A DNA stretch of 20,419 bases from a virus, in the IMG/VR virus record IMGVR_UViG_3300033153_003104, positions 1 to 20,419 of that record; one strand, written 5' to 3'. Shown here one piece after another: positions 12,607 through 19,846 of the stretch; within the stretch, counting starts at the first letter, position 1; the number at the start of each line of letters is the position of its first letter. Both the position numbers and the translations under genes were made by a program. The notes below the pieces were generated by a model. The model was not told where the DNA came from. It ran no database searches and worked only from the letters and a program-made list of their open reading frames with translations.

Positions 12607-13878
12607 ATGAGTAATATTGATCCAAATACCACTGTAGAACAGGTAGCTGTAGAAGACTTAGACAATCTTTTAGGAATGCCTGGTGCAGATAGTGTAATCA
12701 CACCTACTGAAGAGAAACCATCTTTTTTTACAAAAGATAGTGTTGACATGAGTTTCTTAGATAAAGACAATGAGGTAGAAGAAGCTACTATTTCTGAAAC
12801 TACAGAAGAAACTACAGAAGAACCAACTGCTGAAACTACTACAGAAGAACCAACTGAAAAAACAGAAACATTTGATAATCTTGTTAAAGAGGTTGATGGA
12901 ATTATTAATGAAGATTCTGATACTAATATAGGAAGACCTAAATTGGATAAAGAAGGAATGGCTCAATTAGTTAAGGAGCTTGTTAAAGAAGAGTTAGTAG
13001 TTCCGTTTGAAGGTGAAGAAAATTTTAAGGATTATACTTTAAACGATTATAAAGAACTTATTAAAGCAAACTTTGACAATAAGCAAAGTGAGTATAGTAA
13101 ATCATTACCTCATGAATTTAAAAATCATTTACCACCTGAATTACAATATGCTGCTGATTATGTGTTTAATGGTGGGGAAGACTTAAAAGGTTTATTTAAT
13201 TATTTAGCTAAAGCAGAAGAAGTAAAAGACTTTAATACTGATACTGAAAAAGGTCAGGAATCAATTATCAAGGAATATCTTTATGCAACAAAATATGGTA
13301 ATGAAGAAGAAATTCAGGAACAAACTGAAGAATGGAAAGATTTAGGCAAACTTGAAGAAAAAGCAGGTAAGTTTAAACCAAAATTGGATAAAATGCAAGA
13401 ACAAATTGTCCAAAGAAAAGTTGCAGATCAAGAAGCAAAGCAAAAACAACAAGAAGAAGCCTCATATCATTATATGACAAGTGTTTATGACACACTTAAA
13501 GATGGTAAAGTAGGTGAAATAGATATTAATTCAAAAATTCAGAATATGCTTTATGCTGGGTTAGTTCAACCAAACTATCCATCTATTTCTGGAAAACCCA
13601 CTAACTTATTTGGTCATCTAATTGAGAAGTATCAATTTGTAGAACCAAATCATGGCATTATTGCAGAAGCTTTATGGTTACTTGCAGATCCAAACGGATA
13701 TAAAGATCAAATAAGATCTGTAGCAAAAAATCAAGAAGTACAAAATACTGTAAGAAAATTAAAAACTGAGCAATCAAGTAGATCTGCTAGTGCATATGCA
13801 GAAGAAAGTTCCTCTTCAGACAAAAGAAGTACTAAGCAAGGTATCCAAAAACCAAATAAGAACTTTTTTGAACGATAA
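12607..13878 (+). CDS. Capsid scaffold-like protein
   Basis: This gene encodes 423 residues between portal and major capsid protein, the normal place of a scaffold. The N-terminal 100 residues are acidic and disordered, with Thr/Glu repeats at about 61-84 (ETTEETTEEPTAETT). The middle (about 110-240) is helical and ordered, and about 245-295 is a charged Lys/Glu/Gln coiled coil (DKMQEQIVQRKVADQEAKQK). The C-terminus is Ser-rich then basic with an aromatic end (KPNKNFFER); scaffolds often contact the capsid protein through a basic C-terminal tail. Scaffolds guide shell formation and leave or are cleaved before DNA entry. No protease signature is seen in it. A weak promoter-like element precedes it. 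Confidence 0.78.
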   Translation: MSNIDPNTTVEQVAVEDLDNLLGMPGADSVITPTEEKPSFFTKDSVDMSFLDKDNEVEEATISETTEETTEEPTAETTTEEPTEKTETFDNLVKEVDGIINEDSDTNIGRPKLDKEGMAQLVKELVKEELVVPFEGEENFKDYTLNDYKELIKANFDNKQSEYSKSLPHEFKNHLPPELQYAADYVFNGGEDLKGLFNYLAKAEEVKDFNTDTEKGQESIIKEYLYATKYGNEEEIQEQTEEWKDLGKLEEKAGKFKPKLDKMQEQIVQRKVADQEAKQKQQEEASYHYMTSVYDTLKDGKVGEIDINSKIQNMLYAGLVQPNYPSISGKPTNLFGHLIEKYQFVEPNHGIIAEALWLLADPNGYKDQIRSVAKNQEVQNTVRKLKTEQSSRSASAYAEESSSSDKRSTKQGIQKPNKNFFER

Positions 13879-13924: not shown

Positions 13925-15541
13925 ATGGCAACTCCAGTATTAAACAATGGAATTTTCCTTAGAGACACGCAATATAATGCGTCCTCGCATTTGGACTCTT
14001 ACCACCTTGTGAATATGCTGAAAGACGCAGAACCCATGGATCTTGGGCCAGTAGACATTTGGGCTATGGCGCAGAAAGTGGAAATGCCTCTATATCAGAT
14101 GTCTTCATTTGGGGGAAAGAACGTAATCATGGTAGATAATGCTCGTGGTGAGTATAAATGGCAGACACCTGTATCTCAAGATCTTCCTTATATAGTATGT
14201 GACGTTGATGATGCAAACACAACTAAAGGTATTGATGGGACAACTTTTAAAATTCAGCTTAATAAGCGTGAATTTGGACATGGGGATATTATTACTTATG
14301 ACAAGTATAATGGTACTGAACTTTATATTACCGCTGATGATATTTTACCAGTAGGTGACGGTTTTGTATATACCGTACAATTAGTTAATAATGACTCACA
14401 AGGGTTTTTAGATAACACTTTCTTAGCATCAGGAACTAAATTCTTCAGAAAAGGTTCTGCAAGAGGTGAATATGGTGAAAGATTTTCAGATCTAATCACA
14501 GGAGCTGGGTTCAGAGAATTCTACAATTATGTAGGAGGAGCTGAAGCTCACGTTCATTATTCAATTTCTTCAAGAGCTGATTTAATGATCAAAGGTGGAA
14601 TGAATGCAGATGGCACTGTTCCAGTAACTGAGATTTGGAGAAACTTTGATAAGAATAATAATCCTTCTGTTGCTTCGTTAGAACAACTAGTTGGAAGTAT
14701 GGGATCTTCATATGTTAAGAAAGCAATGGCAAACGGAAGTTTATCAAGGACATTCTTAACAAGTTTAGAAGCAGCTCATTTGAGTAAAATTGCTAATGAC
14801 ATTGAAACCTACTTGATGTGGGGTCATGGTGGTAGAGTAAGACAAGATGGTCCAGATGATATTAGATTATCTGTTGGTCTTTGGAAACAACTTGATAACT
14901 CCTTTAAAAGAGTTTATAATAAAAGTGGTTTCACACTTGATCTTTTCAAAGCTGAACTTTATAACTTTTACCAAGGACGTGTTGAACTTAATGGACCAGA
15001 TCCACAAAGACAACTTATTGTCCAAACAGGTATTGGTGGTATGAAAATGGTTAATGAATCAATTAAGCGTGAAGCTGTTGGTTCTGGACTAGTTATCAAT
15101 GCATCTGATGTTGGTGCTATAACTGGTAAAGGCATGGATCTTAACTTTGGTTTTGCATATACTTCATATGTGATTCCATTCTTAGCAAATGTTAAGTTTG
15201 TATTGAATCCAGCATTTGATAATCTTCATACTAACAATGTTGAAAATCCAATCATTGATGGTCATCCACTTAGCTCTTATAGCTTTGTTATTTTTGACAT
15301 CACTGATACAGGAAATGATAACATCTTCCTATTGAAATTAGAATGGGATAATCAACTTAAATGGTGGTATCAAAATGGAACAATGGATTACATGGGTAGA
15401 GCTCAAGGTTTTGCATCTACAGGTCAGTTTAACGGTTATCGTGTGTATATGTCACAGACAATGCCAGCAATCTGGGTTAAAGATCCAACTAAAGTTCTTA
15501 AGATTGTAATGAGGAACCCCGTAACAGGAGGTTCATTTTAA
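13925..15541 (+). CDS. Major capsid protein
   Basis: This gene encodes 538 residues. It follows the scaffold-like gene and is followed by a strong terminator, as expected for the most abundant virion protein. The N-arm (DTQYNASSHLDSYHLVNML, about 11-29) precedes a mixed alpha/beta body with several Gly-rich turns. Typical capsid-like segments include VGSMGSSYVKKAM, LMWGHGGRVRQDGPD, LDLFKAELYNFYQGRVEL and QRQLIVQTGIGGMKMV. The family fold of all tailed-phage capsids is HK97-like; I infer rather than see this. The first 200 bases are clearly richer in G+C and in codons ending in G or C than the neighbours (47-48% in 13981-14100 by hand count). ATG 13925 follows an A-rich leader without Shine-Dalgarno. 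Confidence 0.87.
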   Translation: MATPVLNNGIFLRDTQYNASSHLDSYHLVNMLKDAEPMDLGPVDIWAMAQKVEMPLYQMSSFGGKNVIMVDNARGEYKWQTPVSQDLPYIVCDVDDANTTKGIDGTTFKIQLNKREFGHGDIITYDKYNGTELYITADDILPVGDGFVYTVQLVNNDSQGFLDNTFLASGTKFFRKGSARGEYGERFSDLITGAGFREFYNYVGGAEAHVHYSISSRADLMIKGGMNADGTVPVTEIWRNFDKNNNPSVASLEQLVGSMGSSYVKKAMANGSLSRTFLTSLEAAHLSKIANDIETYLMWGHGGRVRQDGPDDIRLSVGLWKQLDNSFKRVYNKSGFTLDLFKAELYNFYQGRVELNGPDPQRQLIVQTGIGGMKMVNESIKREAVGSGLVINASDVGAITGKGMDLNFGFAYTSYVIPFLANVKFVLNPAFDNLHTNNVENPIIDGHPLSSYSFVIFDITDTGNDNIFLLKLEWDNQLKWWYQNGTMDYMGRAQGFASTGQFNGYRVYMSQTMPAIWVKDPTKVLKIVMRNPVTGGSF

Positions 15542-16286: not shown

Positions 16287-17306
16287 ATGAATGATTACAC
16301 ACAAGTAGAAGTAAAAACGTTAAACACGCCTAGAAAGGTTTCAATTAAACCATTCTTTAATCCTTCAAAAGAAAATATGGGATTAGAGAATTATGGTATG
16401 GCTTTATATGACGGAGTTTATCATGAAGAACAATTAGCATGTATTGAGAAGAACGGAATTAAAAGATTTGTTACAGGACTTAATGAGTTTGCTCCTGAAG
16501 TTAAACTCATTAACGACCCTGAAGTTAAAGCTTCTAAAATTAAAGAAATAAGAAATATTATTTCTGAATTAGAAAAAGATTTAGCAGCAAACGTAATGGA
16601 TGTTGATGATGAAAAATTTTGGGAAAAGGTAACACTTTTAAGACCTAACAATGATGAGTTTTGGGGAAAGATATCTTTAAGAGTAGGAAATGATACAACT
16701 CATTTAGATCCTGAAAAAAATCCTTATGATTTAATTAAACTATATGCAATAGAAGCAGGTGGTTTCACATTGGTTGCAAAAAGTCTGGAAACAGCACAAT
16801 CAATGCCGTCAGCACCAAAGTTTTATTTAGATAGATATGAGGAAACTATTTCAACTAAAAATGAAGTTAAAAAGATACGTAATAAAGCTTTATCTCAATT
16901 ACAGAATATGTATGATAAGAATAGTAAAAAATTATTATATGTTACAAAGGTGATTGTACCTGGAAGTCCACAATATATTAATTCAACACCTAATGATGTT
17001 TTATATGAGGTTATGGATGATTATATAAATGGAAATACATTTGAAAGAGATGCGAAAAGATCTGCTGAAACTTTCTTAAAAACGTCTAAGACTTCTATGG
17101 AAAATTTAAAACTTAGATCCTTAATTAAGGACGCTACATATCACAAGTATATAGCTCCAAAAGCAGATGGATTCATATATCATTTAAAATCAAGTACAAT
17201 GTTGGGAAGAAATCCTGGTGATGTATTAGAATATTTAAAGAACCCATTAAATGAGCAAATTTTGGTTGCCATACTTGAGCCTGTAGAAAAACTATGGAAT
17301 AGATGA
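16287..17306 (+). CDS. Unidentified 339-residue head-region protein
   Basis: This gene encodes 339 residues. The first half is mixed helix/strand with MGLENYGMALYDGVYHEEQL, an Asp/Glu/Lys-rich helix (KEIRNIISELEKDLAANVMD, about 84-103) and the segment LRPNNDEFWGKISLRVGN. The second half is strongly helical and basic (KKIRNKALSQLQNMYDKNSKK, in pieces), followed by a C-terminal part with GFIYHLKSSTMLGRNPGDV and LVAILEPVEKLWNR. No cysteine cluster, membrane segment or catalytic motif is obvious. Its stop overlaps the start of the first small glycine-rich gene (ATGA at 17303-17306), so they are coupled. Context suggests a virion or assembly protein; I do not recognise the family. Confidence 0.65.
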   Translation: MNDYTQVEVKTLNTPRKVSIKPFFNPSKENMGLENYGMALYDGVYHEEQLACIEKNGIKRFVTGLNEFAPEVKLINDPEVKASKIKEIRNIISELEKDLAANVMDVDDEKFWEKVTLLRPNNDEFWGKISLRVGNDTTHLDPEKNPYDLIKLYAIEAGGFTLVAKSLETAQSMPSAPKFYLDRYEETISTKNEVKKIRNKALSQLQNMYDKNSKKLLYVTKVIVPGSPQYINSTPNDVLYEVMDDYINGNTFERDAKRSAETFLKTSKTSMENLKLRSLIKDATYHKYIAPKADGFIYHLKSSTMLGRNPGDVLEYLKNPLNEQILVAILEPVEKLWNR

Positions 17307-17701
17307 AAAAGTTACCCAAAAAACAACGAGGTGGATACATTGGTGATGGAAGTATAGGAGATACAACCACTGGTCAGATATCACAAACAAGAGATGCTAC
17401 TAATAATGACGTCATGAAGTATTTCAATGATCTTGAAGCCAGTCGTAATAGGAGAGATCCTGGAATGCAAGGAGATAGAGTTCCTTTAATAGATCCAATA
17501 AGACCTAATCCTACTGGAAATACTGAAATAAGAGAAAACACAACTACTGATGATAGTGGGATAAAATATCCTGAAGGTAGAAAAGTTCCAGTAAGATTTA
17601 AAAAAGGTGGATCATGGGAAGGTATAGGTGAAAAAAAGCTTAAGAAACCAAAATATAAAAAAAATAAAAAGGCTAAACCTAATAAGAAAGGTCTTTTTTA
17701 A
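17303..17701 (+). CDS. Small basic double-glycine protein A (two shared modules)
   Basis: This gene encodes 132 residues, starting with LPKKQRGG (GG at 10-11). A second shared block, RDATNNDVMKYF at about 30-41, matches the N-terminus of the next two genes (RDxxNND-hydrophobic-K/R-YF). The middle is Pro/Asn/Asp-rich and disordered. RFKKGGS at about 98-104 recurs in the 18160 gene, and the tail is extremely basic (KKLKKPKYKKNKKAKPNKK). There is no folded domain I recognise. The basic tail could bind DNA. It overlaps the upstream gene by ATGA and is the largest member but one of the family. Function unknown; capsid cargo protein or DNA-condensing peptide are guesses. Confidence 0.7.
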   Translation: MKKLPKKQRGGYIGDGSIGDTTTGQISQTRDATNNDVMKYFNDLEASRNRRDPGMQGDRVPLIDPIRPNPTGNTEIRENTTTDDSGIKYPEGRKVPVRFKKGGSWEGIGEKKLKKPKYKKNKKAKPNKKGLF

Positions 17702-17712
17702 TGTTCTAATAT

Positions 17713-17895
17713 ATGAACAGAGATATAAAAAATAATAATATCATTAGATATTTTCAAGAAGGTGGTAATCAATATGGTGACTATGGACCTAAAAAAATAC
17801 GTAATAAAGATAAAGTCTATAAACGAGGAGAATTTAGAAAAGGTAAAACAAAAGAAGAGTGGATAAGATCTGGTGGTAGACTGTTAATGCGTTAA
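17713..17895 (+). CDS. Small basic double-glycine protein B
   Basis: This gene encodes 60 residues: MNRDIKNNNIIRYFQEGG, then a Tyr/Gly-rich piece (NQYGDYGPKK) and a basic remainder with another GG at 54-55 (RSGGRLLMR). Its first 18 codons match those of the following gene at 47 of 54 bases, so the two arose by duplication. No motif outside the family is seen. It starts 11 bases after the preceding stop. The same NN-hydrophobic-RYF block occurs inside protein A. At only 60 residues, whether it is real rests on the conserved paralogous N-terminus; synonymous changes between the copies (ttt/ttc, ggt/gga, atc/att) support translation. Confidence 0.68.
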   Translation: MNRDIKNNNIIRYFQEGGNQYGDYGPKKIRNKDKVYKRGEFRKGKTKEEWIRSGGRLLMR

Positions 17896-17976
17896 AGAAA
17901 AGTGTTTGGGATAAACGTTAATATGAACAGAGATGTAAAAAATAATGATATTCTTAGATATTTCCAAGGAGGAGGT
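17713..17976 (+). repeat. Pair of 54-bp direct repeats opening genes B and C
   Basis: Copies at 17713-17766 and 17923-17976, 47 of 54 bases identical by hand comparison, start at the two ATG codons and end at the double glycine. Three of the seven differences are third-base synonymous changes. The copies are 210 bases apart. Confidence 0.85.
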
Positions 17977-18117
17977 GCAGTTAAAGATTGGTGGGGAGAT
18001 AGATATGCAAGAAGAAGAGATAGAAAGAGAAAGAAAAGTAATAAAGCATCTAGAAATAAAATGCAAAAGCAATGTGATTTTAATAAAAAAAATCCAATGT
18101 GTAAAAGAAGAAGATAA
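17923..18117 (+). CDS. Small basic double-glycine protein C, paralogue of B
   Basis: This gene encodes 64 residues from ATG 17923; an upstream GTG at 17902 is less likely because the homology with protein B begins exactly at this ATG. The N-terminus MNRDVKNNDILRYFQGGG is followed by WW (about 23-24) and a dense Arg/Lys region (ARRRDRKRKKSNKASRNK, about 29-46) with two late cysteines (51, 60). The arginine/lysine density is protamine-like and suggests nucleic-acid contact. It lies 27 bases after gene B and 42 bases before gene D. Only the first 18 residues match B; the rest has diverged or been exchanged. Confidence 0.65.
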   Translation: MNRDVKNNDILRYFQGGGAVKDWWGDRYARRRDRKRKKSNKASRNKMQKQCDFNKKNPMCKRRR

Positions 18118-18159
18118 GAACTTATAAAGTATTTGGAATAGATACTAAAAATATAAATT

Positions 18160-18435
18160 ATGGCAAATTTACCTAAAAAACAAAAAGGTGGGGGAATAAG
18201 TAAAGTAGAACCACAAGTGATAACAGGATTTGGAACAGGTCCTAATTACACAGCAGGAAACACACCTTGGTATAAAGAAGGTGGAAACATTACAAAAAGA
18301 GAAAAAAGAGCTGGAAAAGCCTACGCAAAAGGGAAAGATAAAAAGGGAAATAGAATTCTTGATAAGAATACAAAAGGGATGGATAAATTTAAAAAAGGTG
18401 GATCACAAAACGGACCAACAGGATTTGGATATTAA
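18160..18435 (+). CDS. Small basic double-glycine protein D
   Basis: This gene encodes 91 residues. It begins MANLPKKQKGGG, matching protein A (LPKKQ then R/K then GG, at the same residues 4-11). It continues with a Gly/Thr/Asn-rich linker, a second motif WYKEGGN at about 37-43, a basic helix-like stretch (TKREKRAGKAYAKGKDKKG) and a third motif KFKKGGS at about 76-82, again as in protein A. It ends GPTGFGY. Three evenly spread double-glycine motifs in 91 residues make it the clearest example of the family. ATG 18160 follows an A-rich leader. No known domain is visible; probably mostly disordered. Confidence 0.7.
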   Translation: MANLPKKQKGGGISKVEPQVITGFGTGPNYTAGNTPWYKEGGNITKREKRAGKAYAKGKDKKGNRILDKNTKGMDKFKKGGSQNGPTGFGY

Positions 18436-18436
18436 T

Positions 18437-18456
18437 ATTTAAAAATTAAAGTCATG
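18437..18456 (+). repeat. 20-base leader identical to that of the 18920 gene
   Basis: ATTTAAAAATTAAAGTCATG at 18437-18456 is repeated exactly at 18903-18922. Each copy ends in the start codon of a gene. It may be a translation-initiation leader of the Bacteroidota type (A/T-rich, no Shine-Dalgarno) or a relic of duplication. Confidence 0.8.
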
Positions 18457-18897
18457 AGAAAAATAGTTAGAAAATATAAAGGTGGAACTAAAGATATAAA
18501 AACCTATCAAGAAGGAGGGATGCCTTCATGGATAAAGGATCAATATAAAGAAATATCAAAAAGTGGTGAACATAGAACAGATGGACCAATACCACCACCA
18601 GCAGCTGATCGTTGGAATGTTGGACCAACACCTCCACCAGCAGCTGATCGTTGGGGGCCTCCTGTCAACACCAATCCTCCTTGGCAACCAGCTACAGACC
18701 CACGCCAATTAACACCTCCTAATACTTCACCAGATCAATGGAGACCAGCTCAAGGTGATACAACTCAGGGTCAAGTGATGCAAGATGGTGGTGGAATTTT
18801 TGGTAAAGATTATAAAAAACAAAATAAAAAACATAAATTAACCAATCCTGGAAAAAGAGGTGGTGGAAAACAATATAGGCGTAAAGCAGGTAAATAA
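18454..18897 (+). CDS. Small basic double-glycine protein E with Pro-rich tandem repeat
   Basis: This gene encodes 147 residues. The N-terminus MRKIVRKYKGG has its GG at 10-11 like proteins A and D, quickly followed by TYQEGG (21-22), like the YF/YK-x-EGG motifs of B and D. The middle (about 40-105) is Pro/Trp-rich and disordered, including two copies of a 13-residue unit GP(I/T)PPPAADRW and further PxW or QW motifs. A third motif (MQDGGG, about 109-114) and a very basic Gly/Lys/Arg tail with RGGG (about 135-138) close it. Pro-rich repeats suggest a flexible spacer or ligand for a partner. It is the last clear family member before the gene at 18920. Confidence 0.7.
   Translation: MRKIVRKYKGGTKDIKTYQEGGMPSWIKDQYKEISKSGEHRTDGPIPPPAADRWNVGPTPPPAADRWGPPVNTNPPWQPATDPRQLTPPNTSPDQWRPAQGDTTQGQVMQDGGGIFGKDYKKQNKKHKLTNPGKRGGGKQYRRKAGK
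18582..18654 (+). repeat. 39-bp tandem repeat (1.9 copies) coding GP(I/T)PPPAADRW
   Basis: Unit 1 is 18582-18620 and unit 2 begins at 18621, with 34 bases conserved to 18654 and only two differences. The repeat keeps frame (13 codons) and lies in the Pro-rich middle of protein E. Copy number could vary between related phages. Confidence 0.85.
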
Positions 18898-18919
18898 TTA
18901 ACATTTAAAAATTAAAGTC

Positions 18920-19132
18920 ATGGCAGGAGAACCATATCAAAAAGACGGAGACTATGCTTCATATTTAAAGCATTGCATGGATGTAGCTAAAAATAGAGCT
19001 TTATCACAAACTCCAAGTAGTTCAGCATCTGTAGAAGGAATTGGAGAAGCAGAAGCAAAAAATAAAAGATTATTATCTGAGCAACCTTCTGCAAGTAAAA
19101 CTGTACCAGGAATGCCAGGTAAATTGAAATAG
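18920..19132 (+). CDS. Small unidentified protein
   Basis: This gene encodes 70 residues: MAGEPYQKDGDYASYLKHC, a short helix (MDVAKNRALSQ), then a Ser/Ala/Glu-rich disordered tail (SSSASVEGIGEAEAKNKR) ending PGMPGKLK. It lacks the double-glycine motif and the high basic charge of the five genes upstream, so I do not count it in that family, although it shares its 20-base leader with gene E. It ends six bases before the connector gene and may be an accessory head-tail protein. No family recognised. Confidence 0.6.
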   Translation: MAGEPYQKDGDYASYLKHCMDVAKNRALSQTPSSSASVEGIGEAEAKNKRLLSEQPSASKTVPGMPGKLK

Positions 19133-19138
19133 TTTGAA

Positions 19139-19846
19139 ATGAATAATACCACTCTTCAACTTAAAATACAACAAAGGTTGAATAAACTTGCTAGTACAGA
19201 CTATGATAACATAGAATGCTGGCAGATTGTTGAGGCCTTTAATAAAGCACAGATTGAGTGGCCACGTAGACAAATACGTGGTAGTAATGCATTTAAGGAT
19301 GGTGATGAAGGTTCTGTAAGAAGAATAGATGATTTACAGCGTCTTTTATTAGAAGAAAAACTACCTCTTACAGATAAACAAATCTTTTATGAGTCTGTTT
19401 CAGAACTTCCAGTTGATTATTTAGAGTATAAAAGAATTGATGTAAAAGGAGTACATGAGTGTTGTGATGAAGGAAGACCTATGATTGTATATTTAGCTGA
19501 AGAGGATAATAGAGCTCAATTATTAAGAGATGTTCACAAACAACCAAACTTTGAATGGGGTGAAACTTTTTCAACTTTAATTAATAATAAAGCAAGAATA
19601 TTTACTAATGATCAATTTCAATTAGAAGACGCAATTTTAACATATTATAGAAAACCTATTAACATTCAAATTGCAGGTTGTACAGATCCTTATACCCTGG
19701 TTGTTTCAGTGGTAGATGTTGAATCTGAATTTAAAGATGACATTGTAGAATTAATAATTGATGAAACTATTGCTATACTTGCAGGCGACATTGAATACGG
19801 AACTCAAATGCAAAGAGGAACACAAGCTGCTGAAAGAAGTAATTAA
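19139..19846 (+). CDS. Probable head-tail connector / neck (tail stabilisation) protein
   Basis: This gene encodes 235 residues. The N-terminal third is helical (LKIQQRLNKLASTDYDNIECW, IVEAFNKAQIEWPRRQIRG, about 5-47), as in gp4-type stabilisation and adaptor proteins of podoviruses and crAss-like phages. It is followed by a beta-rich middle (FYESVSELPVDYLEYKRIDV) and a C-terminal helical end (DDIVELIIDETIAILAGDIE) typical of the closing helix of such connectors. It would sit beneath the portal and join head and tail. Position after the head genes and before a structural gene agrees. Identification rests on general pattern and order, so the exact ring it forms is uncertain. Start ATG 19139 lies six bases after the previous stop. 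Confidence 0.68.
   Translation: MNNTTLQLKIQQRLNKLASTDYDNIECWQIVEAFNKAQIEWPRRQIRGSNAFKDGDEGSVRRIDDLQRLLLEEKLPLTDKQIFYESVSELPVDYLEYKRIDVKGVHECCDEGRPMIVYLAEEDNRAQLLRDVHKQPNFEWGETFSTLINNKARIFTNDQFQLEDAILTYYRKPINIQIAGCTDPYTLVVSVVDVESEFKDDIVELIIDETIAILAGDIEYGTQMQRGTQAAERSN

Follow-up and report, generated by a model that had tools for sequence, protein, structure and literature searches.

The selection of proteins for travel in the head of tailed phages is known in a few models. The crAss-like phages are a very abundant and mostly uncultured group, and this report deals with one of them, represented by a 20.4-kb fragment (IMG/VR record IMGVR_UViG_3300033153_003104, 20,419 nucleotides), the whole of which is called the window. 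The focus is on five consecutive genes of the window, termed A to E, whose small and basic products share short motifs containing a glycine pair (GG). They occupy the slot between a 339-amino acid (aa) gene and a ring/adaptor gene, which is hypervariable in relatives and is here called the cassette; the second region considered, the cargo block, extends from the muzzle gene to the virion RNA polymerase in the long relatives, with the protein cargo-2 encoded directly upstream of a gp46-like gene. We lean towards the reading that a hypervariable accessory cassette is represented in the window by A to E, and that these code for small basic virion cargo, akin to internal head proteins, with a shared short docking tag.

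The internal proteins of phage T4 are diverse small proteins in which only the targeting sequence is conserved (PMC3012670). The cassette proteins resemble these T4 and T-even internal proteins (IPI-IPIII) in being small, basic, and diverse, in varying between close relatives and, presumably, in being packed with the DNA and ejected. A short conserved sequence does occur on otherwise diverse proteins, as with the T4 capsid-targeting sequence (CTS), so that the comparison with T4 made in the original prediction is apt in functional terms, but the cassette is not a member of that system: the tag has a different sequence and differs in its placement and in how often it occurs. It is not always N-terminal, may lie within a protein or at its C-terminus, may be repeated, and is shared with giant proteins of the cargo block. 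No gp21-like protease was recognized in the records tested, although the S77 control was silent as well.

A second comparison is offered by phage crAss001. The portions of the crAss001 report considered here (PMC10172136) describe gp45 as a virion cargo protein that docks by separate short segments to the portal and to the tail barrel, mention a 14-residue helix at the muzzle that is unassigned, and contain no description of the tag. Cargo-2 of the relatives is placed as gp45 is (C1, with gp46 as C2), i.e., directly upstream of the gp46-like gene and after the muzzle, while the N-terminus of gp45 (MAKKKIKRRGKMPPNIFDTGG) is only loosely similar to the tag. The large cargo-block proteins as a group correspond by position to gp45 and its neighbors.

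Finally, polyvalent proteins (Iyer et al. 2017, PMC5512222) combine several domains and have been predicted to enter the cell by injection along with the DNA, and the mosaic cargo-block proteins of the relatives, which may join SET, GNAT, and peptidoglycan-binding domains in one chain, are like them. Several enzymatic domains per chain are not found in A to E but do occur in a 1757-aa protein of the relative G005. Unlike polyvalent proteins, the units are also dispersed as separate proteins of 60-150 aa with the same tags, and no peptidase domain was found in the chains scanned. The small phage proteins with DUF6321 or DUF5872 belong to the same cassette in relatives and are not among A to E; DUF6321 (e.g., L009 15208-15459) has matches in 550 phage records, most of them from cyanophages and pelagiphages.

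Shared Modules in Proteins A to E

The claim that five small basic genes are built from common modules was borne out, as all five open reading frames (ORFs) are present in the late direction and their sharing exceeds composition-matched chance. With residues shuffled within each protein, the 4-mers shared among A to E number 12 against 3.1 expected (1 of 2000 shuffles as high), and the 5-mers number three against 0.24 (14 of 2000). A to E and their motifs lie on the + strand.

Protein A (17303..17701; 132 aa, net charge +15) opens with the leader KKLPKKQRGG, whose LPKKQRGG motif (17312..17335) scores 7.4 bits on a matrix trained only on cargo-2 leaders, and continues with the RDATNNDVMKYF block (17390..17425), kept as KDIRNNELLAYF in the closest relative, L277, with an FKKGGS motif (17597..17614), and with a Lys-rich tail. 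FKKGGS is present in 9 cassette proteins and KKGGS in 62, and openings resembling the block of A (xLKYFNDxR) are found in cassette proteins of L008, L009, L016, and others. Protein B (17713..17895; 60 aa, net +10; MNRDIKNNNIIRYFQEGG) has a homologue in L277, and its YFQEGG motif (17749..17766) is matched in all six residues by the leader of L146 3831, a cargo protein of 1104 aa. Protein C (17923..18117; 64 aa, net +17; MNRDVKNNDILRYFQGGG) is an N-terminal paralogue of B and carries YFQGGG (17959..17976), a form (YFQxGG) also seen inside cargo-1 proteins, e.g., at residue 899 in L115. Protein D (18160..18435; 91 aa, net +14) begins with the leader MANLPKKQKGGG, including LPKKQKGGG (18169..18195; LPKKQNGG in the cassette protein L243 7431), followed by YKEGG (18271..18285), FKKGGS (18388..18405), and a C-terminal NGPTGFGY. 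Protein E (18454..18897; 147 aa, net +15) has the leader MRKIVRKYKGGTKDIKTYQEGG, with KYKGG and YQEGG motifs (18472..18519), then PPPAADRW repeats and a Gly/Lys tail; YQEGG is also present in cargo proteins of L118, L154, L155, and L159. No PHROG family matched A, D, or E, and a Pfam scan of a protein set including A to E gave no window protein that could be named as a match.

Most of the motifs had been read correctly in the original prediction: the LPKKQ(R/K)GG opening is LPKKQRGG in A and LPKKQKGG in D, (Y/F)(Q/K)EGG is FQEGG in B, YKEGG in D, and YQEGG in E, and FKKGGS is indeed common to A and D. The RDxxNND-KYF block, assigned to A, B, and C, holds for A, where no GG comes after it, but B reads RDIKNNN and not NND. 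Similarly, the GG at residues 10-11 is exact in A, D, and E, but it is a preference only, because position 17 is as common and the motif is also internal. With the ATG at 17923 taken as the start of C, for which an alternative GTG lies 21 nt upstream, the GG of B and C falls at 16-18, the second preferred position.

The Cassette in Related Phages

Seventy-seven distinct related loci contain both anchor genes, with 0-15 genes in between and most often 5-9. Their 467 unique cassette proteins have a median length of 93 aa, 97% are positively charged, with a median net charge of +18, and at least one motif gene is present in 68 of the 73 loci that have cassette proteins. The first GG lies most frequently at position 17 (39 proteins) or 10 (31 proteins). 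Counting one protein per cluster, [YFLIVM][QKRM].GG is found in 37 of 97 cassette clusters (5.3 when shuffled), KKGG in 24 (3.1 when shuffled), and the KAQxG core in 14 (2.1 when shuffled). The residues enriched around the GG are Met (7x), Tyr (4x), and Phe (3x) at -3, Gln (4x) at -2, and Ser (3x) at +1. Single-linkage clustering chained 244 of the 467 proteins into one cluster via common modules, which fits a mosaic construction.

The charge of these proteins agrees with another reading, in which basic bodies condense or neutralize the packaged DNA and the GG motifs are flexible low-complexity spacers with no specific partner; in T4, lysines of the internal proteins contact the packaged DNA (PMC3012670). 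We regard this as rather unlikely, given that position-specific residues around the GG, and the recurrence of the motif on large cargo proteins, point to a specific motif, although such a role does not exclude that of a cargo tag. Likewise, the presence of very small proteins in which a GG lies close to the N-terminus would suit secreted, bacteriocin-like double-glycine-leader peptides matured by a C39 transporter. This origin is most improbable: the leaders are basic, the GG is repeated at C-termini, and no C39 peptidase was found in 12 records, with a control positive in 8 genomes and the window itself being a fragment.

The original prediction also raised the question of whether such genes always lie between capsid and connector; this is their usual place, but a few small genes with the motif lie elsewhere (G002 10817 and 23360; G004 8206; G003 53030). 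The cassette of relatives also carries homing endonuclease, endonuclease VII, endolysin-like, and carbonic-anhydrase-like genes. A Lar-like restriction-alleviation match of one member was rejected, as this endonuclease VII protein matches endonuclease VII families better. A tblastn search with a KKGG-rich cassette protein against phage isolates gave no match. In two close relatives, the cassette is opened by a Cys-rich protein of 32-34 aa with a CDGSH signature (KCGKSQDSDGYCDGSH; L277 10008-10112, L284 10022-10120).

The Same Motif on Large Proteins of the Cargo Block

The new observation is that the motif vocabulary of the small proteins also opens, and recurs within, the large cargo-block proteins of relatives. 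Their N-terminal leaders include MLRKVRIKSVPKARTGYQ, MKKKVRIYKA...FLAKAQMGG, MLRRVRIKSVPKARTGYQ, MKKKVRIYKAPDGNGKYVNKTSQFLAKAQMGGTPD, MRKVRIKGLPKAGHGG, and MAKFKITGLPKAQIGG, along with QQYFQEGG in L146, and a 1019-aa cargo protein of G003 bears YQEGG at its N-terminus as MGTIKRMKYQEGG. Of 149 cargo-block proteins, 78 have the core motif within their first 70 residues, against 1.7 expected. Internal recurrences include AYGGYLPQAQSG and YGGNLYKAKDG, the cargo-2 proteins of L116 and L117 have KKGGS close to the C-terminus, and the top local similarities between the unrelated bodies of cargo-1 and cargo-2 are a repeated motif, PEYMAYGGYxPxAxxGI.

In six proteomes, the motif is confined to two gene groups: the cargo block has 69 matches against 24.5 expected (2.8x) and the cassette 18 against 3.6 (4.9x), while the remaining genes are at chance (25 against 22.4), ratios that are descriptive because, although synteny defined the blocks, the patterns were drawn up with the data already inspected. 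The matrix trained on cargo-2 leaders gave at least 10 bits for 33 cassette proteins against 2.9 shuffled; the "rest of proteome" set of that scan still held cassette genes and is thus no control. The link of B, C, and E to the cargo proteins is of the shorter YFQEGG/YQEGG type.

AlphaFold2 modeling of cargo-2 gave a predicted local distance difference test score (pLDDT) < 50 for the segments that hold the motifs (10-16 and 299); next to these segments are a folded domain and a helix of 100 residues. The model of A, a weak one from two sequences, has low confidence, the GG regions included, with a moderately confident helix (26-49) over the RDxxNND-KYF block. The motif segments in these two models are probably disordered, and low-confidence segments together with synonymous codon variation fit a short linear motif that is selected as a peptide.

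Among cultured phages, Lbo-JY46, which is at the edge of the clade of the window, has a large tagged protein of 485 aa that opens with MKIRIIGLPKAQIG. The C-terminus of cargo-2 showed a weak similarity (hhalign) to gp40 of phage phi4:1, a virion protein detected by mass spectrometry (MS). Searches with cargo-2 gave no match by tblastn against phage isolates, no match by Foldseek of the model against the PDB, and only a chance-like match in a PDB sequence search with its profile; no description of the motif was found in the literature searched.

Some further proteins of these phages are worth recording. The 1757-aa protein of G005 (L108 6703-11976, - strand) has SET, GNAT, and peptidoglycan-binding domains by Pfam, with GG-motif linkers between domains, and other stretches that resemble, by eye, HAD, zinc-ribbon, and lytic-transglycosylase domains. 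A SET-like opening segment (GLFAKNPIKQGERIGLAH) is present in phage proteins of L092 (14339-17062; weak Pfam support) and near the left ends of L154 and L155. In L125, L126, L130, and L182, an ORF of 211-213 aa that looks GIY-YIG-like starts with MATYLQS. The gp46-like cargo gene starts likewise, which would look like the insertion of a homing element just after the start of that gene.

Selection, Exchange, and Swapping of Leaders

Compared with L277, the ratio of nonsynonymous to synonymous substitution rates (dN/dS) is 0.50 for A (Fisher p 0.006), 0.53 for B, and 0.28 for D (p 0.003), against 0.14 for the 339-aa gene and 0.16 for the ring gene. Purifying selection thus acts on A, B, and D (Fisher p = 4e-5 for the three pooled), and it is weaker than in the flanks. 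A dN/dS near 1 and a lack of similar genes in relatives had been named beforehand as grounds for abandoning the original prediction; what was found is purifying selection and homologues in L277.

Leaders and bodies are swapped between relatives. The gene order is B, D, E, A, 70-aa gene in L277 and A, B, C, D, E, 70-aa gene in the window, and the homologue of A (A', L277 10843-11166) is 48% identical. The leader of E is constant, with its YQEGG (MRKIVRKSKGGTTNIKSYQEGG in L277), while its body is replaced and does not align; the leader of D is gained or lost, since its homologues in L277 and L284 lack LPKKQKGG and retain the body and the C-terminus. The dS of B (0.25) is below that of the flanking genes (0.8-1.0), which suggests a recent exchange of B. 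Leader codons vary synonymously (proportions of differences pS 0.48, pN 0.22), which indicates selection on the peptide; for the same reason the idea of the GG as a recombination signal at the DNA level was dropped.

The apparent recent exchange of B, and the homing endonuclease and other enzyme genes in the cassette, would also agree with accessory genes that act outside the virion, in late host takeover, and whose motif is common through repeat recombination rather than function. We find this quite unlikely, as the residues of the motif stay constant over synonymously varying codons and the motif is absent from the other variable genes of the genomes.

Docking or Cleavage

In proteolytic maturation, a head protease would cut at GG or AQ-x-G, trimming leaders and separating cargo modules as in T4, phiKZ-like phages, and adenovirus core proteins. 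The leaders are indeed N-terminal, short, and separable, motif copies lie between the SET, GNAT, and peptidoglycan-binding domains of the mosaic 1757-aa protein, and the motif is in segments modeled as disordered. Against this, Pfam scans of a 108.7-kb relative (73 genes, three giant genes, and cargo proteins) detected no protease except an S74 tail-fiber chaperone; S78 and C39 families were absent from 12 records with positive controls; S77 had no match in the records tested, a weak negative as its control gave no signal; and C48 (adenain/Ulp1-like) had none in 12 records, its control also lacking signal and C5 itself not being searched. Small proteins have several motif copies, some 5-10 residues from the C-terminus, where cuts would be pointless. 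The consensus of adenain is spaced as (M/I/L)XGG, and the M-x-x-G-G spacing found here, with enrichment at -3, two residues before the GG, departs from it. A protease of an undescribed family, or one of the host, may be involved, and all scanned records may be incomplete. Nevertheless, the lack of a recognized protease, together with motif copies at C-termini, makes cleavage less likely, and we consider proteolytic maturation unlikely.

Thus, of the capsid-cargo hypothesis in the original prediction, the part that stands is that of cargo-like proteins with a shared tag, as the motifs are in the cargo block of relatives and at chance elsewhere in the six proteomes, whereas cleavage at the GG is not supported, no prohead-type, C39, or adenain/Ulp1-like protease having been recognized in the records tested (C48 and S77 controls silent). 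Between its two options, we prefer the docking of all these peptides on a single virion protein: motif copies near C-termini, up to several per small protein, are more in keeping with docking sites than with one cut behind a leader, and the same motif on the large cargo-block proteins of relatives is most likely a common address or docking tag.

On this docking reading, the cassette proteins would be largely disordered, each bearing, once or several times, a short linear motif of the form aromatic/Met/Leu-[QK]-x-G-G or [LIV]-P-[KQ]-[AK]-[QKR]-x-G. By binding one shared partner, for which the acidic scaffold-like protein (net -35) and portal or tail parts are candidates, the motif would recruit proteins to the internal store of the virion, loading cargo into the procapsid or a tail store, and it may order the cargo for ejection. 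The small basic bodies would travel with the DNA, probably being ejected with it, and may neutralize or bind DNA or act on the host, and phages would trade modules among themselves while the tags stay unchanged.

Several points weigh against this proposal. The cassette rows are related and their counts are not independent, and clustering helps yet chains through shared modules; the regular expressions, too, were written after viewing the data. On the LPKAxxG matrix, A has only its 7.4 bits, B, C, and E are below zero, and the 6.0 bits of D are not at its leader. Since the window stops short of the cargo block of this phage, the match to cargo proteins rests on relatives. The hhalign comparison of the cargo-2 profile with crAss001 gp45 was not significant, and homology to gp45 was thus not found. 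Finally, the MS-verified cargo of phi14:2 and phi4:1 (cargo proteins read) is without the leader, by which the tag belongs to the clade of the window.

Neighboring Genes

The gene order of the window is TerL, portal, acidic scaffold-like protein, capsid protein, a 222-aa gene, the 339-aa gene, A to E, a 70-aa gene, and the ring/adaptor gene, the features of this paragraph that have coordinates being on the + strand. The scaffold-like protein (12607..13878; 423 aa), with -23 of its net charge of -35 within the first 100 residues, owes its putative role to position and charge. The major capsid protein (13925..15541; phrog_11589) has crAss-like relatives, namely in Leptolyngbya phage Lbo-JY46, gut crAss-like phages, and Cellulophaga phages phi4:1 and phi17:2. 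The conserved 339-aa gene (16287..17306), the left anchor of the slot, is 77% identical to that of L277. The 70-aa gene (18920..19132), kept in close relatives, closes the cassette and has no GG motif. The right anchor is the ring/adaptor (CrAss_Ring_1-like) protein (19139..19846; phrog_29507, virion structural protein); the CrAss_Ring_1 match is that of one member of the set containing its G002 homologue.

Nearly identical copies of an A-rich box, TTTAAAAATTAAAGTCATG, precede E (18434-18456) and the 70-aa gene (18902-18922). Directly downstream of the ring gene, L009 has a ferritin-like protein (16560-17156; PF00210, E 7.6e-21), with similar genes in some relatives, while other relatives have a DUF5856-type protein downstream of the ring gene.

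Implications

A wider possibility, which we put forward tentatively, is that one GG motif is a general cargo address in this crAss-like clade, borne by large ejected proteins, mosaic effector-like proteins, and interchangeable small basic proteins alike, so that any tagged recombined body would be packed and injected by a modular loading code with no protease. If true, a tag common to giant and tiny cargo would be a sequence rule that predicts ejected proteins. It would also open a route to new host-takeover or anti-defense proteins, and possibly provide a tag for loading foreign cargo. The cargo-tag reading thereby offers a testable role for hundreds of hypothetical proteins.

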